DNA of 52,569 nt, taken from assembly GCA_012799645.1 (NCBI GenBank), contig JAAZKV010000018.1, positions 105,519 through 158,087 of the forward strand, written 5' to 3'. The position numbers and the translations under genes are program-made. This DNA is from Candidatus Iainarchaeum sp. (lineage in GTDB: Archaea > Iainarchaeota > Iainarchaeia > Iainarchaeales > JAAZKV01). The notes under the pieces are model-generated. The model saw nothing but the letters and a program-made list of their open reading frames with translations. It made no database searches and was not told where the DNA came from. Positions 41,484-46,171 of the stretch are shown piece by piece (positions within the stretch are counted from its first letter, which is position 1; the number at the start of each line of letters is the position of its first letter).

Positions 41484-41805
41484 ATTATGTTTTTTCACAT
41501 TTTTTATTTTATTTTTATTTTTTTTATTTTATTTTTATTTTTTTGTCCTTAATTGAATTTTTTTCCTAATTTTTTTAATTGTTTTTTTTAGTTTTTCTAA
41601 CTTTTTTTGTATTTGTTTTCCAATATTTTTTTAGTTTTTCTTTTTTTGTTTCTTTTTTGGTTTGTTTTTTGGTTTGTAGGAGTTTTTCAAGTAATCTTTA
41701 TAAACTACTTCGCGTTTGTTCTTTTTACATTTTGTTTTTTTAAATTTTTTTTTGAAAAAAGTTTTGTTTGTTTAGGATTTTGTTTTTTGCCGTAGAGTGA
41801 GTTTT
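41484..41805. other. Intergenic 320 bp before nrdD
   Basis: T-rich spacer with a 20-nt direct repeat (TTTATTTTATTTTTATTTTT-like) after the glyA stop. TTTATAAAC (41698-41706) is the clearest TATA box and predicts an nrdD leader of roughly 75-80 nt. No gene seen. Confidence 0.4.
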
Positions 41806-44800
41806 ATGTCTTTACCAGTTTTTGTTACAAAAAGAGATGGTTCTCGTGTTTCTTTTAATTCAGAAAAGATCGCGGTAGCTATTTGGAAAGCAGTTGTTGC
41901 TGTTGGGGGTTCGGATAGAGAGAAAGCAAACAATATTGCAAAAATTGTGGTGGAAAAAATTGCTGAAAGATTTCCCAACCAAGAGAGTGTTGCTGTTGAA
42001 TCAATTCAAGATATTGTAGAAGAAATTTTGATTAAAGAGGGACATGATAAAACAGCCAAGGCGTATATTTTGTATCGTAATCAAAGAGAGTTGATGAGAA
42101 GAACAGAGGATATGGTGAATAATTTTGAAGTAGTTAATCAGTATATTACTCAAGAGGATTGGAGAGTTAAAGAAAATTCTAATATGGGTTATTCTTTACA
42201 AGGAATGAATTTCAATATTGCGGGTAGAGTGGTTTCTAATTATTGGTTGGGTAGAATTTATCCAAAAGAAATTGCAGAGGCACACAAATCAGCAGCTATT
42301 CATATTCACGATTTGGATATTTTGGCAACTTATTGTGTGGGTTGGGATTTGAAACAATTATTGATTGAAGGTTTTACTGGGGTGCGTGGTAAAGTTGCGT
42401 GTAAGCCCGCTAAACATTTCAGATCAGCGCTTGGTCAAATAGTGAATTTTTTTTACACTATGCAAGGAGAAGCAGCAGGGGCTCAAGCGTTTTCAAGCTT
42501 TGACACTTACTTAGCTCCGTTCATTAGGTATGATAATTTATCAGAAAAAGAAGTGGAGCAAGCATTACAAGAGTTTGTTTTTAATTGTGCAGTTCCAACA
42601 AGAGTAGGGTTTCAGTGTCCTTTCACTAATATTACTATGGATTTAGTTGTCCCTAAACACATTGCTAATGATCCAGTGATTATTGGTGGAAAAGCAATGG
42701 AAGCAACTTATGCCGATTTTCAAAAAGAAATGGATTTGTTGAATAGAGCATTTGCAAAAGTAATGACTGAAGGGGATGCGATCGGAAGGCCTTTTACTTT
42801 TCCAATCCCTACTTACAACATCACTCCTGATTTTGATTGGGATAATCCTAATTTGGATTCAGTGTGGGAAATGACAGCAAAGTATGGGATTCCTTATTTC
42901 GCCAATTTTGTTAATTCTGATATGAGTCCTGATGATGCGAGAAGTATGTGTCTTAGTGGGAGTGAATTCATTTTAGTTAAGATTAATGGTAAAATAAAAA
43001 ACACTACTATTTTTGAATTAGTATCAACTTTTGGGAGCGAAGGTTGGTGCGAGAATAAGTTTGATGTGCAGGCCCTTTCTTTGAATGAAAATTATTTAGT
43101 TGAGTGGGTTCCTATAAAAAATTTTTTAAAAACTAGGTTAACTGGTTTGGTACAAATTAGAACCGAAGATGGGAAACTGTTCAAAGCTTCTTCAAATCAC
43201 CCTGTTTCAGTTCTCACTCCGCAAGGAATAATTGAAAAAAATGCAAAAGACATTCAGTTAGGAGATTATTTATTAAGTTTAAAATCAGGAGAGGGTGTTT
43301 TAAATAAAGAGTATCAAAAAATAGGTTCCTATTCTCTTGATGAAGATTTAGCTTTCTTTTTAGGTTATTTTACTGCTGATGGGACTTACTTAAAAAAACC
43401 CCACTCTTCTTTATTGAGTGGAATGCAATTCACTTTCAATGCATTAACTTTAACTAATTTGGATAAAATAAAATCAATTTGTTTAAACAAGTTTAATTAT
43501 TCTTTGAAAGAGAAAAAGGACTCTCGATACAATTTGAATTATGGTTATTTTTATAATTCAGAATTAGCTAATTTATTTTTTAGTAATGGGTTTGAGAAAC
43601 ACGGAAAAGTTTCTTCCCTAATTTTTAACTCTCCTAAGAGTGTAATAAATTCTTTTTTAGAAGGGTTCTTTGCAGTGGGTGGTTATGCAAAAAAACAAGA
43701 GGTTCATATTAATGATAAAGTTCTTGCAAAAGAATTAGTTTTATTATATTCTTTAATAGGAAAACCTGTTTTTTTCAAAGAGCGAGAAAATTCTCAAGTA
43801 ATTAGATTAATGCATAAGAAAGGTAATTTGAATAAGAGTGAGTTAGGTGTTAATTGTTTGGATGAGTTAGTTTTAGGATTGAACAAGAGTGGAATGGTTG
43901 GTTTGGCCTCAATTCAAAAATACTCTACTCAAACAAAATTATTCAAAAAAATACGACAAGGTGCTTTTTATCCTGTAAGAGTTTGTGAAATAATTGAATC
44001 AAATAATACTGAAGATTTTTTTGATGTTGAATTGGAAAGAAACCACAGGTTTGTTCATTCACTTGGATCAATAACCCATAATTGTTGCAGATTGCGTTTG
44101 GATAATAGAGTGTTGAATAAAAGAGGGGGTGGATTGTTTGGAGCTAATCCTTTAACAGGAAGTATTGGAGTGGTTACAATTAATTTACCAAGAATTGGTT
44201 TTTTATCAAAAACCGAAGAAGAGTATTTTAACACTCTTAGTCACTTAATGGATTTAGCAAAAGATTCTTTAGTGATTAAAAGAAAAACAATTGAAAGATT
44301 AACAAACCAAGGGTTGTATCCTTATTCTTCTTTTTATTTAAGAGGAGTAAAAGAAATTACTGGTTCTTATTGGGCAAATCATTTTTCAACAATTGGATTG
44401 CTTGGAATGAATGAATCATTAATTAATTTTTTAGGAAAAGATATTACTTCAAGAGAAGGGCATGCGTTTGCAGTTAAGGTTCTAAATTTTATGAGGGATA
44501 AAATTCAAGAGTATCAAAATGAAACAGGGGATGTTTTTAATTTAGAAGCAACTCCTGGTGAAGGAACTGCGAGAAGATTTGCTTGGTCAGATAAAAAACA
44601 ATTCCCTACTATTGTGGTAGCGAACGAGAGTGCTTTTAAGAACAAAAATGCTGCTCCATATTATACAAATTCTTCACAACTCCCAGTAAATTACACTGCT
44701 GATTTATTCAAAGCACTGGATTTACAAGATCCTCTTCAAACCCTTTACACTGGGGGAACAGTTTTTCACATTTTTTTAGGAGAAAAAGCCCCTTCAAAAG

Positions 44801-44946
44801 AAGCAGCAAAACAATTAATTAAAAAAATAACTAACAATTACAAAATGCCTTACTTTTCTCTAACCCCAAGCTTTAGTATTTGTCCAATCCACGGATATAT
44901 TAGTGGAGAACACGAGTATTGTCCAATTTGTGACAAAGAAAATTAA
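41806..44946 (+). CDS. nrdD: Class III ribonucleoside-triphosphate reductase NrdD, intein-containing, lacking glycyl-radical segment
   Basis: The 1046-residue precursor gives a 668-residue mature chain after intein removal. It has an ATP-cone (VTKRDGSRVSFNSEKIAVAI ..., first 90 residues), then the NrdD barrel (HIHDLDILATYCVGWDL, FVFNCAVPTRVGFQCPFTN, MCCRLRLDNRVLNKRGGG once spliced, GSIGVVTINLPRIG). The C-terminal zinc element is present (SICPIHGYISGEHEYCPIC), but the protein stops at DKEN. Family members continue with EVYSRVVGYxRP, which contains the essential radical Gly. That segment is a separate gene at 45286-45438. ATG 41806 is chosen; GTG 41797 is in frame. Anaerobic metabolism is implied. 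Confidence 0.95.
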   Translation: MSLPVFVTKRDGSRVSFNSEKIAVAIWKAVVAVGGSDREKANNIAKIVVEKIAERFPNQESVAVESIQDIVEEILIKEGHDKTAKAYILYRNQRELMRRTEDMVNNFEVVNQYITQEDWRVKENSNMGYSLQGMNFNIAGRVVSNYWLGRIYPKEIAEAHKSAAIHIHDLDILATYCVGWDLKQLLIEGFTGVRGKVACKPAKHFRSALGQIVNFFYTMQGEAAGAQAFSSFDTYLAPFIRYDNLSEKEVEQALQEFVFNCAVPTRVGFQCPFTNITMDLVVPKHIANDPVIIGGKAMEATYADFQKEMDLLNRAFAKVMTEGDAIGRPFTFPIPTYNITPDFDWDNPNLDSVWEMTAKYGIPYFANFVNSDMSPDDARSMCLSGSEFILVKINGKIKNTTIFELVSTFGSEGWCENKFDVQALSLNENYLVEWVPIKNFLKTRLTGLVQIRTEDGKLFKASSNHPVSVLTPQGIIEKNAKDIQLGDYLLSLKSGEGVLNKEYQKIGSYSLDEDLAFFLGYFTADGTYLKKPHSSLLSGMQFTFNALTLTNLDKIKSICLNKFNYSLKEKKDSRYNLNYGYFYNSELANLFFSNGFEKHGKVSSLIFNSPKSVINSFLEGFFAVGGYAKKQEVHINDKVLAKELVLLYSLIGKPVFFKERENSQVIRLMHKKGNLNKSELGVNCLDELVLGLNKSGMVGLASIQKYSTQTKLFKKIRQGAFYPVRVCEIIESNNTEDFFDVELERNHRFVHSLGSITHNCCRLRLDNRVLNKRGGGLFGANPLTGSIGVVTINLPRIGFLSKTEEEYFNTLSHLMDLAKDSLVIKRKTIERLTNQGLYPYSSFYLRGVKEITGSYWANHFSTIGLLGMNESLINFLGKDITSREGHAFAVKVLNFMRDKIQEYQNETGDVFNLEATPGEGTARRFAWSDKKQFPTIVVANESAFKNKNAAPYYTNSSQLPVNYTADLFKALDLQDPLQTLYTGGTVFHIFLGEKAPSKEAAKQLIKKITNNYKMPYFSLTPSFSICPIHGYISGEHEYCPICDKEN
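42949..44082 (+). mobile_element. Intein in NrdD at the active-site Cys
   Basis: The 378-residue intein spans CLSGSEFILV to SITHN, interrupting ARSM/CCRLRL. Splicing residues are intact: Cys1, block-B SSNHPV, the THN end, and Cys +1. It encodes a LAGLIDADG endonuclease: motif 1 LGYFTADGTY keeps its catalytic Asp (intein residue 144), while motif 2 LEGFFAVGGY has Gly in place of Asp (244). The site lies at the finger-loop Cys region of class III RNRs. Confidence 0.92.
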
Positions 44947-45285
44947 ATGATGGAAATTATATGGCGGAAAATGGGGGAAATTAAATATTGGAAATTAAAT
45001 ATTGGAAATTAAATGGGGGTAATTGAATAGGAGAAATTAAAGAGGATAAGTGTTTGTGGATAATTGAATGAGGATAAGTAAATGGAGATAATTAAGTTAT
45101 GAAAAAGTTTGTGTGGGAATTATTGGAAAATTAAATTATGAAAAAGTTTATGAAAAATTAATTAGTGAAAAAATTATTATGGAATTAAATTATTGAGGAA
45201 TTATTTAGTGAAAATATTTTGTGGAATAGTTTAATGTAATATTAGTGCGTGAATTTTAAATTTATTTTTAAAGGAGTGATTTAGT
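44947..45285. other. 339-nt repetitive spacer splitting nrdD from its glycyl-radical gene
   Basis: The spacer has three 14-nt tandem units (GGAAATTAAATATT, 44976-45014) resembling the nrdD stop region, degenerate GGATAATTGAATGA units and two TTATGAAAAAGTTT copies. Stops occur in all plus frames. TTTTAAATTT (about 45254) and AAGGAGTGA (45271-45279) at its end serve the next gene. Confidence 0.7.
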
Positions 45286-45438
45286 ATGGTTAAAACAAAA
45301 TGTGAAGTGTATAGTAGAGTGGTTGGTTATATTAGGCCAATTAGTAATTGGAATGACTCAAAGCAGGCCGAGTTTAGTGATCGGTTGAAATTTGATTCTT
45401 CAATGAAATCCGACAATCAATCAAAATTAAAGTGTTGA
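45286..45438 (+). CDS. Free-standing glycyl-radical peptide of class III RNR
   Basis: The 50-residue product MVKTKCEVYSRVVGYIRPIS then NWNDSKQAEFSDRLKF matches the C-terminal segment of NrdD, including the RVxGY radical Gly (residue 14) and the WNxxKxxEFxxR tail. The preceding NrdD stops just before the equivalent of EVYSR, so the two chains together make one complete enzyme. AAGGAGTGA six nt upstream and a TATA-like TTTTAAATTT show independent expression, and nrdG follows after 34 nt. Stand-alone glycyl-radical subunits are known for pyruvate formate-lyase (YfiD/GrcA), but an equivalent for RNR is unusual. It is too short for routine gene calling. Confidence 0.93.
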   Translation: MVKTKCEVYSRVVGYIRPISNWNDSKQAEFSDRLKFDSSMKSDNQSKLKC

Positions 45439-45472
45439 ATTGTTAAATTGATATTTGGTTTTGGTGGGTTTT

Positions 45473-46171
45473 GTGTTCATTGGAGGGTTGCAAGAATTAA
45501 CTCTTACAGATTTTCCTGACAAAGTGGCGTGTATTGTTTTTTTAGTTAATTGTAATTTCAAATGCAAGTTTTGTTATAATAAAGAATTAACCTCCACTAG
45601 TTTTTTTAAAAAAAGTAAAAGGAAATTGATTCCTGATAATGATTTTTTTTTGTTTCTTGATTCAAAAAAGAAAATGCTTGATGGGGTGGTGATTACTGGG
45701 GGAGAACCCACTCTTTCTCCTGGTCTAGTTGAGTTTGTAAAAAAAATTAAACAAAAAGGATTTTTAGTAAAACTTGATACTAATGGTTCAAACCCTGTTG
45801 TTTTGGAAAAATTGTTGAAAAAAAATTTGGTGGATTATGTTGCAATGGATTTGAAGTCTCCTGAAAAAAAACACAAATTTATTACTCAATCAAGTGTTCC
45901 TTTTTCAAAAATAAAAGAATCAATTTTTATTTTAAAAAACTCGGGTGTTTTGCACGAGTTTAGAACCACTTTGTATCCTAGACTATCAATTGAGGATTTA
46001 AAAGAAATGAGCGAATTAATAGTTGGTGAGAGGTGGTTTTTGCAACAATTTGTCGGAAAAAATGTTTTGGACAAAAACTCTCGTCATCTCCGCGCTTTTA
46101 ATAACAAAAAATTGGAAAAAATTTTGAAAGAATTAAATAAAATCACCAAAGTTTCAGTTAGGGGTTATTAA
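45473..46171 (+). CDS. nrdG: Anaerobic RNR-activating radical-SAM enzyme NrdG
   Basis: The 232-residue radical-SAM protein has the cluster motif CNFKCKFC, GGEPTL for SAM binding, and the usual LQELTLTDFPDKVACIVF start. It abstracts hydrogen from the radical Gly of NrdD using S-adenosylmethionine. Its position right after the glycyl-radical peptide gene supports joint function. GTG 45473 is the probable start, with GGTGGG just upstream; the frame extends to TTG 45455. The size is similar to archaeal activases. Confidence 0.92.
   Translation: MFIGGLQELTLTDFPDKVACIVFLVNCNFKCKFCYNKELTSTSFFKKSKRKLIPDNDFFLFLDSKKKMLDGVVITGGEPTLSPGLVEFVKKIKQKGFLVKLDTNGSNPVVLEKLLKKNLVDYVAMDLKSPEKKHKFITQSSVPFSKIKESIFILKNSGVLHEFRTTLYPRLSIEDLKEMSELIVGERWFLQQFVGKNVLDKNSRHLRAFNNKKLEKILKELNKITKVSVRGY

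Follow-up and report, generated by a model that had tools for sequence, protein, structure and literature searches.

A two-gene class III ribonucleotide reductase with a free-standing glycyl radical peptide in Candidatus Iainarchaeum and other lineages

Ribonucleotide reductase (RNR) is the sole de novo source of DNA building blocks. We analyzed a 52,569-nt stretch of the Candidatus Iainarchaeum sp. contig JAAZKV010000018.1 (hereafter the window, from whose first letter positions are counted), in which the anaerobic, class III RNR is encoded by two genes. The long gene, nrdD, stops after its zinc motif, and the glycyl radical segment lies on a 50-codon open reading frame (ORF) of its own 339 nt downstream, followed by the activase gene nrdG. 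An earlier note on this DNA had described this arrangement, which the ORFs and the Pfam matches confirm. The note's broader proposal of a two-gene class III RNR with a separately translated radical C-terminus is also supported, with docking of the peptide on NrdD being what the sequences would predict. We are fairly confident that the two chains form a working class III RNR with a radical strand that is probably replaceable; docking, radical transfer, and replacement are steps that we infer from sequence.

The radical segment of NrdD is a separate gene

The elements of the locus are as follows.

41797 to 44946, + strand: nrdD, encoding the N-chain, with ATP-cone, catalytic barrel, zinc motif, and an intein, without the glycyl radical segment
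44881 to 44931, + strand: zinc-site motif CPIHGYISGEHEYCPIC at the N-chain end, seen in the sequence and kept in relatives
45270 to 45279, + strand: Shine-Dalgarno-like AAAGGAGTGA before the C-chain, seen in the sequence; in relatives, this ATG is preceded by such sites more often than expected
45286 to 45438, + strand: C-chain, the free-standing glycyl radical peptide of 50 aa (Pfam NRDD 531-562, E 1.7e-9)
45325 to 45327, + strand: codon of Gly14, the expected radical residue (RVVGY), by alignment to P. copri NrdD Gly711
45455 to 46171, + strand: nrdG, radical SAM activase (TIGR02495 NrdG2, 178.8 bits, cut-off 131)

The N-chain matches the Pfam ATP-cone (E 1.6e-22) and NRDD (whole-protein E 8.9e-176) profiles and scores 1015 bits against NCBIfam NF006126. 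It ends in ...CPIHGYISGEHEYCPICDKEN, with a TAA stop at 44944-44946, and the C-chain ORF opens with MVKTKCEVYSRVVGYIRPISNWNDSKQAEFSDR... The NRDD profile is split exactly between the two, with positions 1-530 on the long ORF and 531-562 on the 50-aa ORF, no overlap and no gap, and bit scores of 586 and 37.4, respectively (curated cut-off 26.2). The barrel and the radical glycine are not on one polypeptide here: there are two ORFs, and the second has a separate ribosome site, as the earlier note had observed.

The RVVGY glycine of a full-length homologue (L006) aligns with the radical residue Gly711 of P. copri NrdD (PMC11226230). Gly14 of the C-chain occupies this L006 column in alignment A1 and is invariant in 19/19 chains. 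The next gene after the C-chain is nrdG.

The window genome is archaeal, as its signal recognition particle RNA shows, comprises 0.78 Mb in 34 contigs, and is 89% complete. We looked for a full-length nrdD elsewhere in it, which the earlier note had named as evidence against a split enzyme, and found none; matches to the NRDD profile in this 89% complete assembly are confined to the nrdD/C-chain locus, and class I/II RNR (PF02867) is likewise absent from the profile search.

The N-chain is itself interrupted.

42949 to 44082, + strand: degenerate intein of the LAGLIDADG type, 378 residues (Pfam Intein_splicing E 1.2e-14; TIGR01445 from residue 385)

The intein sits in the finger-loop active-site (thiyl-radical) motif, between M and CCRLRL, and ends in HN before the C. 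The finger-loop cysteine motif is therefore present in nrdD in interrupted form, and the enzyme would require protein splicing plus two-chain assembly.

The split recurs across archaea and bacteria

The earlier note had proposed looking for small RVxGY ORFs beside nrdD in related genomes, and these are abundant. Among 87 genomes of the window phylum, the NrdD-bearing ones comprise 42 split, 8 full-length, and 1 undecidable, so that 42/50 classifiable genomes are split (counts in this and the next phylum are our own tally from listed match positions). The split class III RNR is real, as the note held, and extends beyond one genome, being the prevailing arrangement in the phylum and recurring across bacteria and archaea. 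G139 is the genome that holds a Parcubacteria locus; in a sample of 145 genomes from its phylum, 42 have a match, and of the 40 classifiable ones 24 are split and 16 full-length. Fusion of the radical domain prevails in the phylum of a Desulfobacterales genome, where several genomes nevertheless have it in a separate short ORF. Named archaeal splits include those of Woesearchaeota (L086), Thermoplasmatota (L071), Micrarchaeota (L072), and Altiarchaeota (L117); bacterial ones include those of Dojkabacteria (L080 and L098), Hippea (L094), and Chloroflexota (L109 and L120), as well as Patescibacteria.

Within the order of the window (53 genomes), NrdD occurs in 31 genomes and a class I/II RNR in 19, never together; the 3 genomes that show neither are incomplete. 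This exclusion has a Fisher value of 1.3e-11. The majority of the 31 NrdD-bearing genomes are split. Because the two kinds of enzyme are mutually exclusive, the split enzyme must work; judging from these gene contents, a lineage with the split enzyme as its sole RNR cannot live on a broken enzyme.

We built a tree from the catalytic core without the radical segment; it is a quick build in which many forks are weak and some branches very long. It needs 12 changes between split and fused forms, at least 7 of them forced by well-supported branches, indicating that splits, fusions, or gene transfers occurred repeatedly. In this tree, an all-split group (SH-aLRT 95) unites the window family with Patescibacteria, Dojkabacteria, Woesearchaeota, and Altiarchaeota. 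A second group of split enzymes holds most of the remaining families of the order and has one full-length genus nested inside it.

The break point differs between families. In the window family, the N-chain retains C-P-x-H...C-P-x-C and the peptide opens MVKTKCEVYSR. Elsewhere in the order, most families have an N-chain that ends after the third presumed zinc ligand (...HxxCP plus a variable tail) and a peptide that opens M-x-K-C-(G/N); from these sequences, the zinc site in such families would be completed across both chains. We also considered whether the cysteine that directly precedes EVYSR distinguishes the free-standing chain and rejected it, as it is nearly as common among full-length enzymes.

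The small gene is translated on its own

We compared 62 small ORFs, measuring distances where the nrdD stop lies in the same locus. The small ORF starts between -43 and +339 nt from the nrdD stop (once at 1500 nt) and often overlaps it. Frame offsets of 0, 1, and 2 all occur, the window having offset 0. In 48/59 C-chains, the nearest ATG has a Shine-Dalgarno match of 5 nt or longer ahead of it; shuffled sequence gives 8.7 on average and 17 at most. In the window family, dN/dS (the ratio of nonsynonymous to synonymous substitution rates) of the radical segment is 0.003-0.30 where computable, many pairs being saturated, and the sequence comparison thus indicates that the small ORF is under purifying selection.

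In the window, the two genes are separated by the following elements.

44947 to 45285, + strand: spacer of 339 nt with 2 C on the + strand and stops in all frames (sequence count)
44940 to 45041, + strand: degenerate 14-nt tandem array AAATTAAATGGGGG (TRF and repeat search)

Three explanations would dispense with a separately made C-chain. Joining of the chains by programmed frameshift, readthrough, or translational bypassing is suggested by relatives with a lone in-frame stop between the parts (L007, L008, L044) or with overlapping frames. However, gaps of -43 to +339 nt in all three offsets fit no frameshift or splicing rule, the window spacer contains 12 stops in frame with nrdD (11-13 in the other frames), and no conserved slippery site was noted, making such joining highly improbable.

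A second explanation is removal of the spacer as an intron (bulge-helix-bulge, group I, or group II), leaving a mature mRNA that encodes one chain. A group I intron is known from nrdD of T4-type phages (PMC3653736), and the two window frames are in register. Yet the spacer has no Rfam intron match, and its predicted fold is no more stable than that of shuffled sequence (z +1.3). Moreover, splicing of a spacer cannot join the genes of relatives that overlap or are out of frame, and in relatives the small gene retains its start codon and ribosome site. We therefore consider an intron extremely improbable; neither an intron nor a contiguous nrdD frame, both of which the earlier note had listed as possible counter-evidence, was found in the sequence.

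That nrdD is decaying, or its stop an assembly error, might be entertained for an error-prone metagenome assembly with an AT-rich repeat in the spacer, but has almost no probability given the identical break point across dozens of genomes, the dN/dS of 0.003-0.30, and a genome without another RNR.

Taken together, the separate Shine-Dalgarno sites, purifying selection, three frames, and stop overlaps remove intron, frameshift, and assembly error as general explanations, and the two chains must then assemble.

The 14-nt array starts within the final nrdD codons, occupies the first part of the spacer, and is present in this genome only. The earlier note had suggested expansion of this array inside the gene, an origin of the split that we reject: the array is confined to the window spacer, and relatives are split with short spacers or overlaps. 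The window family has nine other members; every one is split, and the spacer measures 24-131 nt in those with both parts on one contig. Many families of the order have nrdD overlapping the small gene, so that the array is a late addition to the window spacer. Nearby intergenic stretches are likewise C-poor, yet T-rich.

Extra free domains lie beside stress genes

Some genomes carry a free radical domain in addition to a complete enzyme. G025 has a full-length NrdD plus a free domain on a separate contig, and G036 has a split NrdD plus an additional free copy. In both, which belong to two genera, the rubrerythrin stop and the start of the free domain share an ATGA within an operon-like string.

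L034:3578-5184 and L033:2925-6832: strings of Fur-family regulator, rubrerythrin, and free domain, then CDGSH protein or peroxiredoxin

The last gene is the CDGSH protein in G036 and the peroxiredoxin in G025. In Parcubacteria (L079), a free domain follows a Fur-family gene in a genome that also has a full-length NrdD. G059, G001, and G008 also have second C-domain copies, but these are located at contig ends and are left out of the extra-copy count.

Desulfobacterales and Moranbacteria genomes with full-length NrdD also have free domains, which bear an extra Cys-rich stretch. This N-terminal extension occurs in L079, L084, L100, L113, L056, L070, and L132 (Patescibacteria, Desulfobacterales), and the L100 domain lies directly behind a full-length nrdD. 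A second kind of short protein, from genomes of the Desulfobacterales phylum (L257:3007-3432, L258:2996-3304), joins an N-terminal part of ~70 residues to the NrdD tail ITRITGY...SWNNGKRAELKDR.

Radical domains occur without NrdD in viral records

For viruses, we used IMG/VR contigs and took the best 80 of 530 matches; as these were picked by similarity, the viral share is not a prevalence. In most of these 80 loci, the radical domain has no NrdD core or NrdG within 4 kb. An NrdD core was found in 0/50 whole viral records bearing an orphan domain, these records (8-100 kb) being mostly fragments. Two records (G123 and G126) carry two orphan copies each. Neighbors of the orphan domains match terminase, portal, primase, ThyX, and other phage families.

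We rejected annotated phage records as a source of the free-standing domain, their closest matches (MT835493, Lak) being full-length NrdD. The phage NrdD of MT835493.1 (L232) has an apparent glutaredoxin or thioredoxin domain fused at its C-terminus. The plasmid matches inspected for a free domain are ordinary NrdD tails.

A proposed mechanism and its purpose

We propose that the long gene would supply the ATP-cone, the ten-stranded barrel with its thiyl-radical loop, restored once the intein splices out, and the zinc motif, and that the short gene, from its own start, would supply the radical peptide with Gly14. The peptide would dock into the barrel by the zinc motif, NrdG would install the glycyl radical on the docked peptide, and the radical would then pass to the finger-loop cysteine.

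Oxygen cleaves glycyl radical enzymes at the radical glycine (PMC8683613, PMC12288474). Since a cut would fall on the small chain, a separate radical strand is probably replaceable: the cell would remake a 50-residue peptide rather than a ~670-residue enzyme. On the same grounds, the simplest reading of the free copies near stress genes is that they may serve as spare parts, and these copies, together with the phage orphans, fit such a use, which suggests a replaceable part.

A competing explanation is that the two chains assemble with no role in repair, the split being a neutral gene fission that became fixed in lineages with small genomes and is kept by overlapping translation. Splits are common among reduced genomes, and most split genomes hold both genes beside nrdG, with no stress genes seen in the examined loci. 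Neutral fission, however, hardly explains the extra copies by Fur, rubrerythrin, and peroxiredoxin genes, those alongside full-length NrdD, or the phage orphans. It is possible, although we lean away from it.

Several points weigh against a replaceable two-chain enzyme. The purpose of replacement after oxygen damage is argued from the gene neighborhood in three lineages and from analogy to YfiD/GrcA, and most split lineages do not have the stress-gene neighborhood. Most genomes are metagenome assemblies. Finally, the fragmentary viral records mean that an NrdD core could lie beyond them.

A wider generalization, which we regard as a near-even call leaning slightly against, is that exchangeable radical peptides may be in use across archaea, bacteria, and viruses, as an obligate subunit of split enzymes, a stress-induced spare next to intact ones, and a phage part reviving or taking over the host NrdD in the course of infection.

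Comparison with known systems

The window enzyme resembles class III NrdD of T4, T. maritima, and P. copri in its ATP-cone, barrel, CCR finger loop, zinc motif, RVxGY, and adjacent NrdG. In described class III RNRs, however, the radical segment is the C-terminus of one chain (PMC11226230), whereas here it is on its own gene.

The closest parallels are YfiD/GrcA and the phage-encoded T4 Y06I, pyruvate formate-lyase spare parts that can replace a damaged C-terminus; PMC8683613 names these two as the only validated spare parts and speculates about others. Like them, the C-chain is a small free-standing glycyl radical domain, with 50 aa (~5-6 kDa) compared to ~14 kDa. Unlike YfiD/GrcA, it belongs to NrdD, as only NRDD/NrdD models match and the sequence is not of the pyruvate formate-lyase type, and it is the sole, obligate radical segment rather than a back-up.

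Split RNRs are known in class II NrdJa/NrdJb (PMC9669993), phage Aeh1 NrdA-a/NrdA-b, and the class II enzyme of phage phiYS40 (PMC3653736). These too form a catalytic subunit from two genes without splicing, but they are of other classes, and in none of them does a glycyl radical segment occupy a chain of its own. Phage nrdD can also be in pieces, as in the T4 group I intron, the phage 949 intron, and the phiAS4 fragments (PMC3653736); such interruptions are introns, inteins, or recent breakage in single phages and not a conserved separate radical gene. Our full-text search of the open literature turned up no description of a free-standing NrdD radical domain; an earlier report in a subscription paper or preprint is possible.

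If correct, this would be a new architecture for anaerobic RNR, with the radical residue on a separate, swappable peptide. It would make testable whether glycyl radical enzymes beyond pyruvate formate-lyase have spare parts, a question raised previously (PMC8683613), and would offer a 50-residue handle for placing labeled or altered radical sites in NrdD in trans. It would also account for many short ORFs that match just the tail of NrdD models, and it hints at a metabolic gene that phages may carry. Split enzymes may be recorded as truncated NrdD by annotation pipelines and in RNR surveys.

As a separate observation, several class I/II RNR genes in the order of the window are very long open frames, up to 1909 aa, and probably contain inteins.
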